Origin: an uncultured bacterium
GTDB taxonomy: Bacteria > Cyanobacteriota > Vampirovibrionia > Gastranaerophilales > Gastranaerophilaceae
Length of the DNA: 37,148 bases
Direction: 5' to 3'
Assembly (NCBI GenBank): GCA_903885635.1
Contig: CAISJE010000180.1
Location: 1 to 37,148, forward strand
Shown: piece after piece, positions 10,268 to 34,644 of the stretch
Layout of the letters: every line of letters starts with the position of its first letter
Position numbering within the stretch: the first letter of the stretch is position 1
The notes under the pieces: model-generated
Database searches by the model: none
What the model saw: only the letters and a program-made list of their open reading frames with translations
What the model was told of the DNA's origin: nothing
Translations under genes and position numbers: made by a program

Positions 10268-10621
10268 ATGACAAATGGTTTTTACACCCCAAAAATAAAC
10301 TTAAGCGGGCATGTGCAAAACGGTGAAGCCGGTATGAAACTTGGCTCTATGCCATCTATTGCATCTCCAAAACTTGATCAGATAAGCGAAGTTTCATCAA
10401 CAAGCTTCAAGGGAGTTATGTCGGGGCTTGTTCAAAACTTAAATCAGAGTTTAAGTGCACCTGACCAGCTTTTAAGTGCTTCTATGTCCGAGAATAGTGA
10501 TGTTGATATTCATGATGTTATGACTGCAATGGCTAAAGCTGAGATAAGTGTCAATGTTGCAACGCAAATTACGTCAAAAGTCATTCAAGCGTATGACAAA
10601 ATTATGCAAATATCAGTGTAA
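10268..10621 (+). CDS. fliE: Flagellar hook-basal body protein FliE
   Basis: FliE connects the MS ring to the proximal rod and is among the first substrates of the flagellar export gate. The 117-residue protein ends in the conserved FliE helix: DVDIHDVMTAMAKAEISVNV followed by QITSKVIQAYDKIMQISV, matching the family pattern of HDVM.AM.KAE and KV..AY..IM. The N-terminal half is low in conservation, as usual. It is the first gene of a plus-strand flagellar cluster with fliF next. An AGGT sits before the ATG. Rod genes flgB and flgC, often just upstream of fliE, are not in this window. Confidence 0.9.
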   Translation: MTNGFYTPKINLSGHVQNGEAGMKLGSMPSIASPKLDQISEVSSTSFKGVMSGLVQNLNQSLSAPDQLLSASMSENSDVDIHDVMTAMAKAEISVNVATQITSKVIQAYDKIMQISV

Positions 10622-10667
10622 ACTTAATAATATATACATATTGGTAAAAAAATTGTATAATATTATA

Positions 10668-10767
10668 GGGTAAGAAAAAAGGGTAAGGGGTAAGAAGAAA
10701 GCGAAATATGGAACTCGATAAAGCCTTTCAGTCCCACAATCCTTCAACCCTTCAAGCTTTAAACCAA
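10668..10767. repeat. Degenerate 7-8 bp tandem-repeat spacer between fliE and fliF
   Basis: GGTAAGAAAAAAGGGTAAGG and GGTAAGAAG units, followed by CCTTCAACCCTTCAAG, give a degenerate short-period tandem texture like the GGTAAAC tracts elsewhere in the window. No coding potential is seen. Confidence 0.4.
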
Positions 10768-10785
10768 AAGGCAGGGATGTAAATA

Positions 10786-12423
10786 ATGGATTTTCAAAAA
10801 CTACTAGAAAACAAACCTTTATTGTACACGATTATAGGAGCGATAATTGTGATACTTGCACTTAGTATAACTGTGGGCGTTGTTTCATCGTCTAAGGGCA
10901 CAACAAAGGAAGGCGTTATCAAAGAAAAAGTGATTAAAGAACCTTTGGATTTATTGACTACGGATAATTTAGGTAAAGCCATCGAAATTCAGGCGCTTTT
11001 GGCTCGAGAAGGGATTAATGCGGATAGAAAAATAGATGGTACAAAATCAACCATTTATTTAAAAGAATATACTCAATCTCAGAGGGATAGGTCGCTTTTG
11101 GCAATAGTAAAAAGTGGGCTTATGGACCAAAATGTTGGGCTAGAAATTTTTGACAAAGGTGATTTTACTTCAACAAAAGAAGATAAAAGAATTAGACTTG
11201 CAAGAGCAATAAATGGAGAACTTGCAAGACTTATCAGGAAAATTCCTCCGATAGAAAATGCATCGGTGTTTATTTCTATTCCGGAACAAACAATGTTTAC
11301 ATCAATGCAAAAACCCATAACAGCAACAGTTCAGGTAACAATTCCCAGCGGGGATAAGCTTGATCAATTAAAAATCAAAGCCATTACAAACCTGCTTTTA
11401 GGCAGTGTAACAGGTATTGCTACTGAGAATATTTCAATTACGGACACAAACGGAAATGTTTATTCCAGCATTATCAATGACGAAGATGATATGGCTAATA
11501 GAGCGGAAGAAAATGATAAATACATGCAACAAAAAGTAAATGCTCAATTAGACAGATTACTTGGAAAAGGCAACTATGTGGCAACAGTCAGTACATTCTT
11601 ACGTCAATCACCCATTGAAACAACAAGTATAAATTATGACCCTAACAAAAAAACCTCCGTAAGCGAACAAACATTTACTGAAGGCTTGGGAGATAAAAGT
11701 CAGGATTCTGATAACGGCGGTGCCGTAAGTGTTTATATGCCTCCCGGATTATCACAAACAGGTAAGGCAAATTCCTCCCAAAATAGAAATTATGCACGCT
11801 CTGCAAGAGAAACCCAATATGGAGTTTCAAAAACTCAGATTAGTGAATATACGAAAGCAGGAGTTATAGAAGAAGTTTCAGTCGCGGTCACCTTGGAAAA
11901 GAGTGCCTTGCCTTCTGATACGACATTGAAAGAATTAAAAGATTTAATTGCAGGGGCAGCAGGTCCTAAAGTTAATGCAAATAACATTACGATTGCGCTT
12001 TCAGATTCAATTGATCCTTATTTAGCCGCCGATAGAGTTGCCAATTTGCCAAAGCCTGATGAAACAGGAAATCCTTGGTGGCTTGCAATTGCGGCAATTG
12101 TTATAGGGCTTGTTGGAGGTTTAAAATATATTTCCGCAAAAGTAAAAGCTTCTCAAGACAGACAAAGAGAAGAATTGATACAATTGCAAGAAAAAACTCA
12201 CGATCAAGAACTTCAACTTCGAGATGTCCATTTGAAAGCTGCGGAATTAACCGAAAAACAATCTAAAATGGCTCAGGGATTCATTGAACAGCAAAAGAGA
12301 GAGGTTGTATCACCGTATGCAAGCGATCTTGATAATACACTTAGAGATTTAACCTCAGATTTGGAAGGCTTGGATGAAGAAGATGCAGGGGAAAAAATTA
12401 AGAATTGGATAGAAAAAGGTTAA
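10786..12423 (+). CDS. fliF: Flagellar MS-ring protein FliF
   Basis: FliF builds the inner-membrane MS ring that houses the flagellar export gate. The 545-residue protein has the expected order: membrane helix 1 at about 15-35, ring-building YscJ-like domains at about 45-220 (EIQALLAREGINADRKIDG, RAINGELARLIRKIPPIENA, SVFISIPE), a second periplasmic region, membrane helix 2 at about 428-448 (WWLAIAAIVIGLVGG), then a coiled coil and an acidic C-terminus. The extreme end, GEKIKNWIEKG, matches the conserved C-terminal helix that binds FliG. AGGGATG precedes the start. Retention of that tail matters, because the next gene is an unusual FliG candidate. Confidence 0.95.
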   Translation: MDFQKLLENKPLLYTIIGAIIVILALSITVGVVSSSKGTTKEGVIKEKVIKEPLDLLTTDNLGKAIEIQALLAREGINADRKIDGTKSTIYLKEYTQSQRDRSLLAIVKSGLMDQNVGLEIFDKGDFTSTKEDKRIRLARAINGELARLIRKIPPIENASVFISIPEQTMFTSMQKPITATVQVTIPSGDKLDQLKIKAITNLLLGSVTGIATENISITDTNGNVYSSIINDEDDMANRAEENDKYMQQKVNAQLDRLLGKGNYVATVSTFLRQSPIETTSINYDPNKKTSVSEQTFTEGLGDKSQDSDNGGAVSVYMPPGLSQTGKANSSQNRNYARSARETQYGVSKTQISEYTKAGVIEEVSVAVTLEKSALPSDTTLKELKDLIAGAAGPKVNANNITIALSDSIDPYLAADRVANLPKPDETGNPWWLAIAAIVIGLVGGLKYISAKVKASQDRQREELIQLQEKTHDQELQLRDVHLKAAELTEKQSKMAQGFIEQQKREVVSPYASDLDNTLRDLTSDLEGLDEEDAGEKIKNWIEKG

Positions 12424-12433
12424 CAAAGTGAGA

Positions 12434-12499
12434 AGTGAGAGGAATATTTTTGTAACCACTCACCTCTCACTAAAACAAAAAGGCGAGAGGTTACAAAAA
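12434..12499 (+). promoter_or_regulatory. Alternative hairpins in the fliF-fliG-position spacer
   Basis: AGTGAGAGG (12434-12442) is a perfect complement of CCTCTCACT (12463-12471). The latter's CCTCTC is also complementary to GAGAGG (12485-12490), the likely ribosome site of the next gene. TTTTTGTAACC (12447-12457) is a perfect complement of GGTTACAAAAA (12489-12499). The pairings are mutually competing, so the spacer could act as a translational switch; function is inferred. Confidence 0.35.
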
Positions 12500-12504
12500 C
12501 AATT

Positions 12505-13476
12505 ATGGCAATAGAGGGTTTTGATTATCAAGGATTTGCGCAGGAACTCGCTTCGCAAGCGGGCGATCTTCTTCCTGCGGATTTTCAGGAGTTTCAAAAA
12601 ACTTATGTAATAAATACTATCAAAAATTTCGCTACTCTTTGCGGAGAAGCAATATATAACGATGAAACCGCTAATTTTAATGTCGATCAGGGAATGCTTA
12701 TAACTCAAATTATTGCAGAATGGTCGTTCCATAAATCGGTTGATTTAATAAAAGCAGGCATCATTCCTGATTATTGGGATAGCGTCATGCAAAAAATTGC
12801 ATTCACTATCTTTGAAATTGGTAAACAAACTATTACAAAGGGATTGCCGCAGGATGAAATACTTCAAATTGTTGAACATCATGTCAAAAAAGCTTATCAA
12901 GCTGCACTTGAAGAATTACAAGAACGTAAAGCCATAGATTCAGAAGTATTTGAAAAAGCAACACATCAATCGAATATCGATGATATGATGGAACAATTAC
13001 AAAAACAAAAAGCAGAACTTAATGCTAATACAGAATCTCAAGTTCAAGAAAAAGGTCATCAATCAAGTTCCAAAATCCTAAAGCTGGCTTCAGTTGCACT
13101 GATATTGAAACAAATTTCTCAGGATAAGGTTCAGACAATTTTAAATAAATTTGATACGCACGATGCTCAAACAGTTATTCAATATATGCAAATGCCCGAT
13201 TTGGAGAAAAAATTAGATAAAGACATAACCATGCGATGTCTAAAGGAAATAAAAATTAGTTTACCTGAGCCAAAATATATCAGCGCAGATAAAATTCTTT
13301 TGAGAATGAAGAAAGTTTTTGAAAAGTTGCCTAAAGATAATATAGAAAGAATAATCACCAAAGAACGCCCTAATGTAAAAGCATTTATTGAAAAAGCGTA
13401 TATTGGGGAATGTTCTCCAATGCCTTCTAAAGTTGCAAGTATAATCGCACAACATTTGGAGGAAAACGTTTTATGA
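12505..13476 (+). CDS. Divergent protein at the fliG position
   Basis: A 323-residue, mostly helical, soluble protein between fliF and fliH, the usual site of fliG, with a FliG-like total length. The N-terminal ~150 residues (MAIEGFDYQGFAQELA; QMLI-type helices to about HHVKKAYQAALEEL) do not resemble FliG. After a charged linker, residues about 190-323 (KILKLASVALILKQISQDKV, TILNKFDTHDAQTVIQYM) recall the helical FliG N-terminal/middle repeats. I find neither the EHPQ motif nor the charged C-terminal torque helix. It overlaps fliH by 4 bp. It may be a remodelled FliG or a FliF adaptor; if the latter, a true fliG should exist elsewhere. Confidence 0.6.
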   Translation: MAIEGFDYQGFAQELASQAGDLLPADFQEFQKTYVINTIKNFATLCGEAIYNDETANFNVDQGMLITQIIAEWSFHKSVDLIKAGIIPDYWDSVMQKIAFTIFEIGKQTITKGLPQDEILQIVEHHVKKAYQAALEELQERKAIDSEVFEKATHQSNIDDMMEQLQKQKAELNANTESQVQEKGHQSSSKILKLASVALILKQISQDKVQTILNKFDTHDAQTVIQYMQMPDLEKKLDKDITMRCLKEIKISLPEPKYISADKILLRMKKVFEKLPKDNIERIITKERPNVKAFIEKAYIGECSPMPSKVASIIAQHLEENVL

Positions 13477-14162
13477 TTATTAAAAAAAGAAGTGAATTAA
13501 TAAGCAAAAAAGTTGACAAGGAGCGCTCGACAACAGAAATTAAAATGGAAGATGCAAAGATTGATTTATTTGATTTAGATAATATAGATTTTGCTCAAAG
13601 ACAAGAAAGAAGAAGAGGAGACCGCCGTCGCGGTTACAGAAGAATTGATGATAGAAATTTAATTTCAAGAGCGCAGGAAGAAGCTGGAACAATAAAAAAT
13701 GCTGCGGCAAAAGAGGGTTACAACGAGGGGCTTGAAAAAGCTAAACATGATATTCAGCAACTCACAAGCGCTTTGGGAGATTTCTTGAAAGCAAAACAGG
13801 AGGTTTTTGAATATATAGCTCCTGATATTTTGGAGATAAGTATTGATATTGCTAAAAAAATTGTAAAACATGAAATAGAGCAAGATCCTCAAATAATTTT
13901 AGCAACAATTTTGGACGTTTTAAAAACAATTTCCAGAGATGAAGCAAGGATTAGTATAAAAGTAAATCCCGCTGAAGTGGCTATAGTAAAAACGAATGTT
14001 GCCGAAATAAGCTCATCAATAGGGCTTGAAGCAAGAATAAATGTTATTGCTGATGATACAATAGAAATAGGAAGTTGCATTGTTCAAGCAAGTAACGGAA
14101 TAGTAGATGCAACGGTAAATACTCAACTGGAAATAATTAAGGAAGCTTTTAAAGGAATTTAA
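13473..14162 (+). CDS. fliH: Flagellar assembly protein FliH
   Basis: FliH is the stator-like regulator of the export ATPase FliI and delivers it to the export gate. The 229-residue protein has an Arg-rich N-terminus (RQERRRGDRRRGYRR), a coiled coil at about 68-115 with AAKEGYNEGLEKAK, and a C-terminal FliH/HrpE domain containing IDIAKKIVKHEIEQDP, ISIKVNPAEVAIVK and the DDTIEIGSCIVQASNGIVDA segment typical of the family. The ATG overlaps the preceding stop (ATGA). fliI does not follow; flhA does, so the ATPase must be encoded elsewhere. Confidence 0.88.
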   Translation: MIIKKRSELISKKVDKERSTTEIKMEDAKIDLFDLDNIDFAQRQERRRGDRRRGYRRIDDRNLISRAQEEAGTIKNAAAKEGYNEGLEKAKHDIQQLTSALGDFLKAKQEVFEYIAPDILEISIDIAKKIVKHEIEQDPQIILATILDVLKTISRDEARISIKVNPAEVAIVKTNVAEISSSIGLEARINVIADDTIEIGSCIVQASNGIVDATVNTQLEIIKEAFKGI

Positions 14163-14166
14163 GCAA

Positions 14167-16263
14167 ATGGCTCAATCAAACAACGGAAATCCGATAAGTG
14201 AAATATTTTTAGCAGTCTTCGTATTGATGCTAATCCTAATTTTGCTGATTGAAATGCCTGAGTGGATTATAAACTTTTCGATAAGCTTAAATATAACATT
14301 AGGAATTGTTTTGCTGATGATTTCTTTGTACGTTCAAAAACCTCTTGAATTGGCATCTTTTCCTTCAATAATTCTTTTAGGTACGATGTTTCGACTTGTT
14401 TTAAGTATCGCAGTAACCCGTTTGATTTTGTCAAAAGGTGATGCCGGAGCTGTAATTCATGCGTTCGGGAACTTCGTAACGGGGGGGAATTTAATCGTTG
14501 GTGGTGTAATCTTCTTAATTATCACCGTAGTCCAGTTTATGGTAATTACCAAGGGTGCCGAGCGTATCGCGGAAGTTGCCGCAAGATTTGCATTGGACGC
14601 TATGCCGGGGAAACAAATGACAATCGATGCCGATTTTAATGCAGGATTGATTTCGCCTGAAGAAGCAGTCAGGAAAAGAGAAGACTTACAAAGAGAATCA
14701 AATCTTTTCGGTTCAATGGATGGTGCGATGAAGTTTGTAAAGGGAGATACGATTGCAGGTATCATAATTGTTATAATAAACATTATCGGGGGCTTATGCA
14801 TAGGGATGTTAATGAACGGTATGCCTGTCGCAGATGCCGTTTCAAAATATACACTCTTAACTATCGGGGATGGTTTGGCGTCACAAGTTCCGTCTTTATT
14901 AATGGCAATTGCGGCGGGTATCTTGATGACACGTTCTTCTGCGGCAACTTCATCATTAGGTGCGGATTTGACAAACCAGATTATGAGCAAACCTTACAGT
15001 TTATTTTTTGCCGGCGCCTTTTTGTTTTTCATCGCAGCAACAAGTTCTTTTACGGGACTGCCTTGGGGGCCATTTTTATTCTTCGCAGTTATTATAATTG
15101 TTGCGGGATTTTCAGTTCTTGTTAATGTAGATGTTCAATCTCAGTTGGGACAATTGGAAAACGTTCGTCAAAACATGCAGGATTTGGTTAACCCAAATAG
15201 AATGTATGAACGGTTAGGCGTAGATGTTTTGAGTTTGCAAGTCGGAGCTGGTTTGCTTGTTATTGCAGACCCTGACCAAGAAGGACAATTGCTTGCCAAA
15301 ATTGCGGCTCTGAGACAGAGAACAACAGACGAATTAGGTTATATAATACCAAACATAAGAATTATGGATTCTTCAGCTCTCGAATCTGAAGAATATCTGA
15401 TTTCAGTACGTGGCAATACTGTTGCAACAGGTTTTGTTTATCCTAAACGATATATGGTTATAGCCGATCAATGGGATGCGATTAGAAAAACAGTTCCTGA
15501 AGATGCGATAGTCGGAGTTGACCCTACGTACCAAACTCAAGCATACTGGATTAATGCAGAAGATGCAAAGCAATCACAAGGTGTAATGGCGGTTGATGCG
15601 ACAGATGTTATAATTACACACCTGCAAGAATGTGTGAGAAAACACGTTGACGAGGTCATGACAAAAACCGATGTCTTAAAACTCATGGAATTGGTGCGTT
15701 CTCAAGACCCTACGCTTGTCAACGATTTGGTGCCTGTAATAATTTCGACAAGTGATTTAAGAAAGATCTTTGTTAACTTAATCCGAGAACGAGTTTCGAT
15801 TAAGGACATAATATTTATATTTGAAAGACTTTGCGATTACGCTAGGTTCTCAAAAGAGCCTGATATTTTATCAGAAAGACTAAGAGCCGCATTAGGTCGT
15901 CCGATTTGTCTTTCAAACGTTTTGGGAGACAAAATTCTCTACGCTTTAACCCTTTCTCCTGATTGGGAAAAAGTTCTTGATGACAGTTGCCAAAGAACAG
16001 AATTGGGAACGATGTTTTTATTGAATCCAATGCAGGTTCAGGAGCTTATTGAAACTACTGCAAATACGCTGATGAGAGCACACCAGAATGTCGGGAAGCA
16101 ACCTGTAATCTTGTGTTCGCCACGTATAAGACTTCCTTTGTATCAGCTACTTGAACGACACATCCCAACGATTGTGGTAATCTCTTATTCTGAATTGATT
16201 ACGGATATTAAGGTTGAGGCGGTTGATACGATTGGGGAAAATTACACGAGCAGCTATGCGTAG
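14167..16263 (+). CDS. flhA: Flagellar export gate protein FlhA
   Basis: FlhA is the large integral-membrane subunit of the flagellar type III export gate. The 698-residue protein has about eight hydrophobic helices in residues 15-330. The FHIPEP-family signatures ASFPSIILLGTMFRLVLSIA and RIAEVAARFALDAMPGKQM are visible, with LISPEEAVRKREDLQRES in the conserved cytosolic loop. The cytosolic C-terminal domain covers about 350-690 (RIMDSSALESEEYLISVRG, DQWDAIRKTVPEDAIVGVDP, LVNDLVPVIIS). It starts 4 bases after fliH, completing a fliE-fliF-(fliG position)-fliH-flhA run. A G7 run at 14481-14487 encodes TGGN. The gene is followed immediately by repeats. Confidence 0.96.
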   Translation: MAQSNNGNPISEIFLAVFVLMLILILLIEMPEWIINFSISLNITLGIVLLMISLYVQKPLELASFPSIILLGTMFRLVLSIAVTRLILSKGDAGAVIHAFGNFVTGGNLIVGGVIFLIITVVQFMVITKGAERIAEVAARFALDAMPGKQMTIDADFNAGLISPEEAVRKREDLQRESNLFGSMDGAMKFVKGDTIAGIIIVIINIIGGLCIGMLMNGMPVADAVSKYTLLTIGDGLASQVPSLLMAIAAGILMTRSSAATSSLGADLTNQIMSKPYSLFFAGAFLFFIAATSSFTGLPWGPFLFFAVIIIVAGFSVLVNVDVQSQLGQLENVRQNMQDLVNPNRMYERLGVDVLSLQVGAGLLVIADPDQEGQLLAKIAALRQRTTDELGYIIPNIRIMDSSALESEEYLISVRGNTVATGFVYPKRYMVIADQWDAIRKTVPEDAIVGVDPTYQTQAYWINAEDAKQSQGVMAVDATDVIITHLQECVRKHVDEVMTKTDVLKLMELVRSQDPTLVNDLVPVIISTSDLRKIFVNLIRERVSIKDIIFIFERLCDYARFSKEPDILSERLRAALGRPICLSNVLGDKILYALTLSPDWEKVLDDSCQRTELGTMFLLNPMQVQELIETTANTLMRAHQNVGKQPVILCSPRIRLPLYQLLERHIPTIVVISYSELITDIKVEAVDTIGENYTSSYA

Positions 16264-32167: not shown

Positions 32168-33466
32168 TTACCTATAAAGCTTCAAAAGTGATTGAATTTT
32201 TTCATCAGATTTAGATTGCGGATTTGCTTGTAAATAAGACTTAATATAGCCCTTGCCAACTTCTTTTTGATTGCTGTCAAAACATAATTGGGCGAATTGG
32301 TAAAGATAAAAAACATTTGATTTTTCTAAATCACAAGCCCTTTTTAAATTCGTAAAAGAATTCTTTTTATCACCCATATTGAGATAAGTTGCGCCAAGGA
32401 GATTGTATAATTCAGCCTTTTTGGGTTCTATTGAAATAGCTTTTTGATAATTTTTTATAGCATCGGGATACATTTTTTTATTGCGATAAATATCCCCCAA
32501 ATTCGTCCAGCCAACCGATTTATTAGGGATTTTCTTAGCATAATCCAGCGCCTGATTGAGTTGAACATCCGTTTGCCCTTGACCTCTAGTCAGCAATGAT
32601 TGCTTATTTATTTTATAAAAGATATTTAGCGTGTTTAAATCCCTCTGCGTTAATGCAGGCTTTGCCTCAGTTGCAATGGCGGACATAACATCATTTTCGT
32701 TCGGGCTGTGCCCTTTTAATCCAAGCGTATGACCTATTTCATGGAGGGTAGAAAATGTAATAAAATCATCCTCCAACTCTTTTTTCGTGTCAGGGTCAAT
32801 CACCAATATATGTATTTCTGATTTAATAATATTGTCGCCTTGATAATAAGGCTTAGAAAAGCCTGCTATATAGCTTTCGCCTCCTGAGGATGTTTCTAAT
32901 GAGTCCTTAAAATCAACCAAGATTTGAGCGTTGGTGGGGGAAGTCACAAAATTGAAATTAACCAACCTATTACTTTTTGCCTGCCATTGTTCAAAAGCTT
33001 TTTGCGCCAAAACTTTTTGTTTTTTTGGTTCAATATAGACATTCAAAGGAAAGGACGCCCATTTGAAGATTTCCCCATCGCTTATAACATAATCAAGATA
33101 ATTATCTTGATAAGCTGCTAATCCACTCCTTGAAGTTGACGCCACAATTCCAAGCTCAGACTGCCTAATCAATGATAGGCCTTTTTGAGAAAGTATTGCG
33201 GCATCCGAAGTCGGAGCTATAATTATAATCCGGTTATACTGTTGTTGCGCGTCATTAACTCTCTTTTGCATCAAATAGGTTTGAGCCAAATAATATCTTG
33301 CGTTAACATTTTTCGGGCTAATCCTGATTGCGTGTTCTAAATTTGCGGCGGCTTTATCATAAACACCTTTTTTAAAAGCGTCTGCACCTACGAAATAATA
33401 ATCCCCCGCCCAAACATTTGTCGCAAAAATCAACATAAACAATAAAGAGAAATAAATCTTTTTCAT
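32168..33466 (-). CDS. Secreted TPR protein with internal matrixin-like metalloprotease domain
   Basis: A 432-residue exported protein with signal peptide MKKIYFSLLFMLIFATNVWA. TPR repeats at about 25-110 (NLEHAIRISPKNVNARYYLA) and again at about 315-430 (GWTNLGDIYRNKKMYPDAI, AELYNLLGATYLNMGD) enclose a zinc-protease domain at about 140-290. The zinc motif is HEIGHTLGLKGH (His242, Glu243, His246, His253), followed by a DVMSA Met-turn. The third His is displaced by one residue compared with the standard HExxHxxGxxH spacing. Probably periplasmic or surface-located. Substrate unknown. Confidence 0.85.
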   Translation of the reverse strand: MKKIYFSLLFMLIFATNVWAGDYYFVGADAFKKGVYDKAAANLEHAIRISPKNVNARYYLAQTYLMQKRVNDAQQQYNRIIIIAPTSDAAILSQKGLSLIRQSELGIVASTSRSGLAAYQDNYLDYVISDGEIFKWASFPLNVYIEPKKQKVLAQKAFEQWQAKSNRLVNFNFVTSPTNAQILVDFKDSLETSSGGESYIAGFSKPYYQGDNIIKSEIHILVIDPDTKKELEDDFITFSTLHEIGHTLGLKGHSPNENDVMSAIATEAKPALTQRDLNTLNIFYKINKQSLLTRGQGQTDVQLNQALDYAKKIPNKSVGWTNLGDIYRNKKMYPDAIKNYQKAISIEPKKAELYNLLGATYLNMGDKKNSFTNLKRACDLEKSNVFYLYQFAQLCFDSNQKEVGKGYIKSYLQANPQSKSDEKIQSLLKLYR

Positions 33467-33614: not shown

Positions 33615-33641
33615 TAAAGATATTTAGTTATTTGTCGACAT
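33615..33641 (+). promoter_or_regulatory. Possible sigma-28 (FliA) promoter
   Basis: TAAAG at 33615-33619 begins a TAAA, then exactly 15 bases, then GTCGACAT (33634-33641), which agrees at five of eight positions with the FliA -10 consensus GCCGATAA. It is about 70 bases before the start of the helical export-like protein. Given flagellar genes in this genome, this is plausible but unproven. The gap 33467-33711 otherwise shows only an AAACCG/CGGTTT hairpin. Confidence 0.4.
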
Positions 33642-33711
33642 GAGTAACATAAGGGAAACAAGGGCGTTACGAATAAACCGAAACGGTTTAACTCAAGGAG
33701 AATTCAAAACA

Positions 33712-34494
33712 ATGGGAATGTCAGCATCACAATCAAGATTATTATCTCTAACTGCAAGGCTGTCAGATTTAGAATTATCTGCTCAAAATATTTCAAACAG
33801 TAAAATTCGGTTAGCAGATCAGTCAGAGCAAGCTTCTAAAGCTTACTTGGATGCCCTTGATAAAGAAAAATTAACAGTTATATCTTCAGATACTTTACAA
33901 TACATAGATGCAACTGCTCATAATTTAACAACTTATAACGCAGTATCAACTTTAGATAAACAAAGATTTTTAAAAGATTTTTCCGGTAGAGTTGTTGTAG
34001 GCCAAAATGTAGCTTCAGCTTATGGCGGTGGATTAAGTTCGTTTTTGGCTACCTTTGCAGGCACTCCGCCGGATGCGGGCGCAGTAGCTTATTATACAAA
34101 TGTCTATAATGAAATTGCCGCTGGCGGATATAATGTGGCAAGTAACAGTAACTTGAATGATACTGAATGGTTGTATCAACAGTTAAAATCAGGTAACATT
34201 TTCTTATCCGAATGGGATTCTACGTCCGGACCTGATGGTGCGGGGGATTTTATAGATGTTTCTTGGACATCAGGAGATGCAACTCTTCAAACAAAGAGCG
34301 ATCCTATTGTGTTAGCTAAAACTCAAGCTCAATATGAAGTCACTATGGCTTCAATCCAATCAAAAGACAAGAGATTTGACATGGAGTTACAAACAATCAA
34401 TACAGAACATTCAGCGATACAAACTGAAATAGATTCTGTCAAGAAAGTTATCGACAAAAACATCCAAAGATCATTCAAATCATTCGATGCATAA
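33712..34494 (+). CDS. Helical protein resembling a flagellar/type III export substrate
   Basis: A 260-residue protein with no Sec signal. The start MGMSASQSRLLSLTARL is chosen because AAGGAG is nine bases upstream; a longer frame lacks a ribosome site. The N-terminus (ARLSDLELSAQNISNSKIRL) and the C-terminus (TEHSAIQTEIDSVKKVIDKN) form amphipathic helices of the kind that flank flagellin and hook proteins. The middle is Gly/Ser/Asn/Asp-rich (NEIAAGGYNVASNSNLNDTE), like an exposed variable domain. A possible sigma-28 promoter lies upstream and a terminator downstream. It is not a recognisable flagellin; the export-substrate idea is inference. Confidence 0.75.
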   Translation: MGMSASQSRLLSLTARLSDLELSAQNISNSKIRLADQSEQASKAYLDALDKEKLTVISSDTLQYIDATAHNLTTYNAVSTLDKQRFLKDFSGRVVVGQNVASAYGGGLSSFLATFAGTPPDAGAVAYYTNVYNEIAAGGYNVASNSNLNDTEWLYQQLKSGNIFLSEWDSTSGPDGAGDFIDVSWTSGDATLQTKSDPIVLAKTQAQYEVTMASIQSKDKRFDMELQTINTEHSAIQTEIDSVKKVIDKNIQRSFKSFDA

Positions 34495-34596: not shown

Positions 34597-34624
34597 ACGC
34601 CGATCTGACAGTCGGCGTTTTTTA
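34597..34624 (+). terminator. Intrinsic terminator after the 33712 gene
   Basis: CGCCGA and TCGGCG pair around a short loop and are followed by six T. Confidence 0.85.
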
Positions 34625-34644
34625 TTGCTGACACCAAATCGGCG

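Follow-up and report, generated by a model that had tools for sequence, protein, structure and literature searches.

We analysed a 37,148-nucleotide contig (the window; contig CAISJE010000180.1 of assembly GCA_903885635.1) from an uncultured bacterium of the family Gastranaerophilaceae. The gene at positions 33712-34494 of its forward strand belongs to a large, previously undescribed protein family, and its product is most probably a late substrate of a second type III export system, derived from the flagellum and found in Gastranaerophilales and related families. Part of this system is encoded in the same window, at positions 10268-16263. It comprises FlhA, FlhB, FliPQR, FliI, FliH, FliF, FliE, FlgB/C and FlgF/G-type rod proteins, and is a paralogue of the motility flagellum, which some relatives possess as well. 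In what follows, the protein family means this gene and its homologues, f1 to f9 denote the taxonomic families in a class panel of 146 genomes (f1 being that of the window), and G, L and C label genomes, loci and contigs of the window's own genome (G000), respectively.

Distribution and layout of the protein family

The protein family is present in 70 of the 146 class genomes (all 52 of f1, 10 of f3, 4 of f8 and 4 of f9) and was not found in the f2, f4, f5, f6 and f7 genomes of this panel. A gene of the FHIPEP (FlhA/SctV) type is present in 94 genomes, comprising all 70 family carriers (G088 with a partial match only) and 24 of the 76 non-carriers, which belong to f4, f5 and f6. The initial annotation, which had proposed a FliA-controlled and type III-exported protein from the letters of the window, tied this proposal to the absence of homologues from related genomes that lack flagellar and type III genes, and we found the family in 0 of the 52 class genomes without an FlhA-family match. 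A FliA/WhiG sigma factor also scored over the cut-off in 94 genomes, which are the FHIPEP set except for two incomplete f4 genomes, G027 (FliA only) and G043 (FHIPEP only). In f1, FliA (TIGR02479) was over the cut-off in all 52 genomes (G134 by a partial match), the window's own genome carrying its copy on contig C49.

The distribution of flagellin is different. Flagellin_N was detected in 28 of the 146 genomes (the window's own genome, 10 of f3, 9 of f4, 4 of f8 and 4 of f9), and the same search found no flagellin in any of the 51 other f1 genomes. Because these account for 51 of the 70 family carriers, the family is not part of an ordinary motility flagellum; the flagellated f4 genomes, conversely, contain flagellin and no family member. 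The flagellar connection made in the initial annotation was therefore retained in part: type III genes accompany the family in every carrier of the panel, whereas a motility flagellum does not. The f5 and f6 genomes (e.g. L138 and L181) have a related FlhA clade and sigma-28, with neither flagellin nor the protein family. The window's own genome is a draft of 233 contigs with a contamination of 3.17%, so that its flagellar contigs could be partly foreign, and it is mainly the other genomes that carry the argument.

At least 463 relatives were detected among the 84,980 species genomes scanned. The 80 that were kept are labelled Candidatus Gastranaerophilales, Melainabacteria, Scatousia, cyanobacterium or uncultured/unnamed bacterium, save two Fusobacterium contigs. 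These two (L022 and L060; JAMPIJ01) come from one Fusobacterium-labelled metagenome-assembled genome, carry members of the family behind promoters of the same type, and probably represent a mislabelled Gastranaerophilales genome. The 110 complete members range from 205 to 772 aa in length and contain 5.1 cysteines per 1000 residues versus 11.7 in comparison proteins. Each f1 relative yielded 16-35 candidates at first look, of which at most 11 were scored. Five paralogues are present in the window's own genome, namely the window gene and four others on contigs C207, C181, C150 and C140, and all of them start with MG[ML]xASQ...R and are conserved near the end, around KNI...FKxF.

An AlphaFold2 model of the window protein made with 37 sequences (mean pLDDT 92.2, pTM 0.71) predicts an N-terminal helix at residues 2-49 (33715-33858, +), a C-terminal helix at residues 198-259 (34303-34488, +) and a folded middle. 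In the 37-row alignment, the mean pairwise identity is 0.67 for the first 25 residues, which form the most conserved stretch, 0.54 for the last 35 residues, and 0.22-0.28 for residues 51-195. The terminal helices and the flagellin-like layout that had been proposed earlier are thus backed by both the model and the conservation, which agree on paired terminal helices around a variable middle. This middle had been described as Gly/Asn/Ser-rich; by eye it is rich in Gly, Asn, Ser and Ala, but it is predicted to be folded (block pLDDT 77-96) and is not of low complexity. The lack of a Sec signal was confirmed by a Kyte-Doolittle analysis, in which no Sec-like hydrophobic stretch was found in the first 40 residues (maximum 10-residue mean of 0.67 versus 2.72 in a neighbouring ORF (open reading frame) with a signal peptide).

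The window protein is not a known flagellin. No Pfam family scored over its cut-off, no NCBIfam family matched even at E 10, and the Flagellin_N and Flagellin_C profiles likewise gave no match even at E 10. When the family profile was compared with the flagellin and FlgL of the same genome by hhalign, the probability was 0.1-0.2%. Homology to flagellin, hook protein or FlgL was thus rejected on the Pfam, NCBIfam and hhalign results; the predicted structure supports a flagellin-like layout, not membership of the flagellins. Against PDB sequences, the family profile gave weak matches, mostly to coiled coils (best E 0.012), and no catalytic domain was found in the window member using Pfam and NCBIfam. 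In summary, the family shares with FliC/FlgL (PF00669, PF00700) the terminal helices, the variable middle, the sigma-28-type promoter (described below) and the lack of a Sec signal, and differs in showing no homology by HMM or hhalign and in being present where flagellin is absent.

A second export system paralogous to the flagellum

The cluster in the window has the order FliE-FliF-X-FliH-FlhA. The gene for FliE (10268-10621, +) matches PF02049 (E 4.8e-17) and TIGR00205 (57.8 bits, cut-off 30), that for FliF (10786-12423, +) matches PF01514 (5.5e-35), PF08345 (4.9e-18) and TIGR00206 (120.6 bits, under the cut-off of 129.75), and that for FliH (13473-14162, +) matches PF02108 (1.4e-23). The last gene encodes an FlhA paralogue (FlhA-2; 14167-16263, +; PF00771, 716 bits). 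In the place of FliG, there is a 323-aa protein (12505-13476, +) with no Pfam family over the cut-off. Comparison with the flagellar FliG of the same genome by hhalign revealed no similarity (probability 0.9%), and a single-sequence model was helical and poor (pLDDT 57). Its identification as FliG is therefore unsupported.

Two complete FHIPEP genes are present in the window's own genome, one on contig C166 (867 bits) and FlhA-2 in the window. The former scores 843 bits against the FlhA equivalog, over the cut-off of 772.1, whereas FlhA-2 is under the cut-offs of both the FlhA equivalog (687 bits) and the SctV equivalog (585.5 bits versus 692.25). In a maximum likelihood tree of 46 rows (midpoint-rooted for drawing only, with the long outgroup branches flagged), the window copy and the f1, f3_b, f8_b and f9_b copies form an FlhA-2 clade of 18 rows with a support of 100/100. 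Adjacent to it are the f4_b, f5 and f6 copies (13 rows). The flagellar FlhA copies of the same genomes form a separate group (11 rows, 100/98), and the SctV rows lie outside. FlhA-2 is 37.5% identical to the flagellar FlhA of its own genome and 81-86% identical to the other aligned f1 copies, and stop codons are absent from FlhA-2 among the matches listed. The coexistence of both full FlhA types in separate clades in G000, f3, f8 and f9 speaks for a paralogue and against a remnant. At least two FHIPEP matches were seen in all 52 f1 genomes. One of those in the window's own genome (L141:2109-3587, contig C57) is a 492-aa protein that matches the FlhA cytoplasmic domain (FHIPEP 315-654, 178 bits) and has no membrane part; it may act as a soluble factor that sorts substrates for the second system.

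Further components are encoded on contig C120 of the same genome, which contains FlgC-, FlgB-, FlgG- and FlgF-like proteins, FliR, FliQ and FliP, and FliO- and FliN-like ORFs. The FliM/FliN-like ORF there (L144:7504-7983) corresponds to only the last part of a 395-aa homologue in G022, and a frameshift in the draft or another start is possible. In a gene-content panel of 33 genomes that included 17 flagellin-less f1 genomes, all 17 contain one FliP, FlhB (split in G102, with an extra weak match in G016) and one FliI over the cut-off, and 16 contain short rod-type proteins, with open frames of 116-164 aa except for one of 300 aa in G118. The FlhA, FliF, FliR, FliQ and FlgB of the second system are under the flagellar equivalog cut-offs, and its FliE and FlgC are over them. 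The long frame in G118 is that of a 278-aa FlgE-family protein, whose neighbours are a FliJ-like protein and one of 305 aa that belongs to no known family. The description of the second system as hookless was dropped after this finding, and only the absence of flagellin was kept. A shared flgE is also listed in the portion of Di Rienzi 2013 (PMC3787301) available to us.

Each of the 17 flagellin-less f1 genomes has one secretin. A secretin is also present in f2 genomes without FHIPEP, and in G004 and on contig C146 of the window's own genome, it lies beside pilB- and pilC-like genes in regions read by eye. In the regions inspected by eye, no secretin or translocon gene adjoins the second-system loci.

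The second system shares FlhA, FlhB, FliPQR, FliI, FliH, FliF, FliE, the FlgB/C/F/G-type proteins and sigma-28 with the bacterial flagellum, from which it differs by the lack of flagellin, by several parts under the flagellar equivalog cut-offs, and by an FlhA outside the flagellar clade. Non-flagellar type III secretion systems (T3SSs), including the Myxococcales type, likewise have a flagellum-derived export core without a filament; in the part of Abby and Rocha 2012 (PMC3459982) that was accessible, the Myxococcales type is given as having no secretin, FliE, FlgB or FlgC. The second system, by contrast, has kept FliE, FlgB, FlgC and FlgF/G-type rod proteins, and its FlhA is under the SctV cut-off. 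The flagellum basal body complexes of Buchnera, as far as presented in the excerpt of PMC8109811, likewise combine basal body and export genes in a reduced genome; those are reduced flagellar clusters, whereas the second system is a separate paralogue with a sigma-28-linked family. Searches for type III secretion in Gastranaerophilales, T3SS in Melainabacteria and secretion systems in Vampirovibrionia found no relevant open-licence PMC papers.

Among the 51 f1 genomes other than the window's own, which are related to one another, at least 24 have a family match 5.9-12.2 kb from FlhA-2. In G004, the linked group has four proteins, of 324 aa (the family member), 272 aa, 90 aa and 110 aa, the last being a relative that ends in DKNIQKSFAYNAA. 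Contig C150 of the window's own genome also carries the member, together with the middle protein and with the short relative. The family profile matched the short protein by hhalign with a probability of 95% over 44 residues near the C-terminus of the latter. The short relatives (103-110 aa) resemble the SctF needle and the YscI inner rod in being small and lying beside a longer member, a likeness by size only, and differ in having no match to the Pfam needle family. They are possible needle-like or rod subunits. The middle protein of this arrangement, which separates the linked member from the short relative, is conserved (265-272 aa; L128:13585-14403, L014:6761-7558) and has no Pfam family over the cut-off.

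Sigma-28-type promoters

The sigma-28 consensus is of the type TAAA-N15/16-GCCGATAA. The sequence at 33615-33641 (+), TAAAGATATTTAGTTATTTGTCGACAT, reads TAAA(G)-N15-GTCGACAT and matches 9 of the 12 fixed letters of TAAA-N15-GCCGATAA. With a matrix built from 46 homologue sites, the window being excluded, this site ranks first among the 74,216 window positions on both strands, and its score is reached by 2 of 1000 randomly chosen 200-bp segments of the window; a second matrix, trained on named loci only, gives it a score of 15.7 at position -97 from ATG 33712. The sigma-28-like site that the initial annotation had placed before the gene is thus real, but the start codon assigned with it required correction. 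ATG 33640 (284 aa) and the end of the -10 element overlap, which places this codon upstream of the transcript start, so that an mRNA made from this site could not use it. The start is reassigned to ATG 33712, the next one in frame, which is preceded by a Shine-Dalgarno-like AAGGAG (33695-33700, +) 11 nt upstream and gives a product of 260 aa, in agreement with homologues that begin with MG[ML][AS]ASQ (e.g. MGMSASQ).

In the family as a whole, TAAA-N15..17-GCCGATAA was matched at 10 or more of the 12 letters in 54 of 110 upstream regions versus 18 of 399 control ORFs from the same loci (Fisher p 1e-26), and at 11 or more letters in 21 family upstream regions versus one control (Fisher p 4e-14). 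A spacer of 16 fits best, the sites lie mostly at -50 to -105 from the start, and outside the query, TAAA is followed by G in 43 of 46 family sites. Because members from flagellin-less loci had poor letter scores, we performed a held-out test, in which a matrix trained on named loci only was applied to the loci with G handles, the own loci and the window at a score of at least 12.4. Sites were detected before all 15 members outside a system-linked orthologue group (n = 14, defined only after the stricter letter count had been seen), compared with 9 of 399 control genes. The matrix finds members missed by the letter count because their -10 often reads GCCGTAAT. The enrichment in the family, the top rank in the window and the held-out result point to sigma-28-type control. 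A search of eight genomes with the exact pattern yielded 19 sites, 7 of which lie directly before family genes, versus 9 sites for the reversed pattern; this count is weak by itself, and its value lies in where the sites are.

Sigma-28-type sites also precede the operon of the 90-aa and 110-aa proteins in four genomes and the short relative of the window's own genome (L128:14432, L130:14693, L133:6370 (-), L142:11037 and L014:7706). In flagellin-less genomes, exact sigma-28-type sites are also followed, at a distance of 21-51 bases, by genes for proteins of no known kind (L206, L211, L200, L204, L205 and L207). Those of L206 and L211 are homologous (121-122 aa), and they are candidate further members of the regulon.

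A sigma-70 promoter for the window gene was considered and rejected, the promoter-like sites numbering 7 versus 6.2 in shuffled sequences. A terminator-like hairpin with a T tail follows the gene (34597-34628, +; hairpin 34597-34618) and is weak, shuffles giving a mean of 0.9 such sites. The divergent neighbour (32168-33466, -) encodes a protein with a signal-peptide-like start, TPR repeats and a match to matrixin-type zinc proteases (PF00413).

Proposed function and alternatives

In the flagellum, FliA (sigma-28) switches on the late genes once the hook is finished. We propose that FliA has been retained in flagellin-less genomes to serve the protein family. The basal body and rod, with a short hook, would assemble, and FliA would then be freed, bind the TAAAG-N15..17-GCCG promoters and drive transcription of the dispersed family genes. 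Their products would exit via FlhA/FlhB-FliPQR without a cleaved signal and cross the outer membrane. The conserved terminal helices may polymerise into a coiled-coil core, with the variable middle facing outward. A filament, a coat and release from the cell are all conceivable; we favour a surface polymer, since conservation covers the two ends and spares the middle. The fuller proposal is that a non-motility basal body, never a motility organelle, builds one or more non-flagellin filaments from sigma-28-driven paralogues with interchangeable outer domains, so that sigma-28 and a flagellar export machine would have become a dedicated apparatus for surface display. We advance this proposal tentatively, rating it slightly under an even chance.

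Several observations weigh against the export of the family by the second system or its assembly into filaments. Most family genes are dispersed and lie outside the second-system loci, and an outer-membrane channel specific to the second system was not found. None of the 14 members of the system-linked orthologue group carries a site in the held-out test, and by the stricter letter count, 1 of 24 members from flagellin-less loci reached 10 or more letters and 8 reached 9 or more. The expectation that the same promoter would recur elsewhere held for the family homologues but weakly for flagellin genes: 4 of 20 flagellin upstream regions reached 10 or more letters, compared with 1.4 expected (27 of 400 random pieces), and that of the window's own genome has no site at this level. 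Cysteine-free proteins are not clearly commoner in the family (19 of 110) than among other proteins (53 of 385). In addition to the lack of homology to flagellin and FlgL described above, a Foldseek search of the PDB with the window model returned nothing at E<=0.001, and in VIA-align, flagellar filaments (Z 8.3-8.8 over ~110 residues) were tied with the coiled coils of SMC and V-ATPase; absence from such lists does not rule out a shared fold. Finally, the class genomes share ancestry, so that the co-occurrences are not independent events.

The members may alternatively be translocators, tip proteins or effectors that pass through the second system into host or prey cells and are not structural subunits. 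The many paralogues, the wide range of lengths, the variable middles, the presence of a partner export system, and the short helical relative in the same type of operon would all suit such proteins. However, the C-terminal helix is conserved as expected for assembly, beyond an N-terminal signal alone, the window member contains no catalytic domain, and the loci of the system showed no adjacent secretin or translocon gene by eye. We therefore regard this role as unlikely, while leaving it a real share of the probability. It is a more doubtful idea that the family is sigma-28-controlled but stays in the cytoplasm or at the membrane, for example as a scaffold, and co-occurs with the export genes through shared ancestry. 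Coiled coils are common, the genes are dispersed, export is deduced from indirect evidence, and all panel carriers are related families of one class; yet a hypervariable middle between conserved ends fits exported subunits better, and the family shares its pattern of loss with FlhA and FliA.

A late part of an ordinary motility flagellum, such as a minor filament, cap or hook-associated protein, is quite improbable. The sigma-28-type promoter, the flagellin-like layout, and the flagellin and hook genes of the window's own genome are in line with this assignment, but it is largely refuted by the carriers without flagellin, in which many members are found, and is further opposed by the lack of homology to flagellin and FlgL and by the flagellated f4 genomes devoid of the family. 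Least probable of all is a reading in which the second system represents a flagellum in decay, with the family as an unrelated expansion: Di Rienzi 2013 (PMC3787301) and Soo 2014 (PMC4040986), in the portions of these papers at hand, take the partial gene sets, with filament, cap, junction and rings missing, as genome reduction or loss of motility, but the coexistence of two full FlhA types in separate clades, the highly similar FlhA-2 copies of f1, free of stop codons in the matches listed, and the same core set of FliP, FlhB and FliI in every flagellin-less genome of the 33-genome panel are at odds with decay.

Most Gastranaerophilales genomes with partial flagellar gene sets keep a paralogous export core that has a sigma factor of its own, along with a large family of likely substrates that lacks annotation. 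If the second system indeed exports this family, it would represent an independent re-use of the flagellar machine within the cyanobacterial phylum. This would offer an explanation for the presence of sigma-28 in non-flagellated bacteria and would name candidate surface or secreted proteins for these common gut bacteria.
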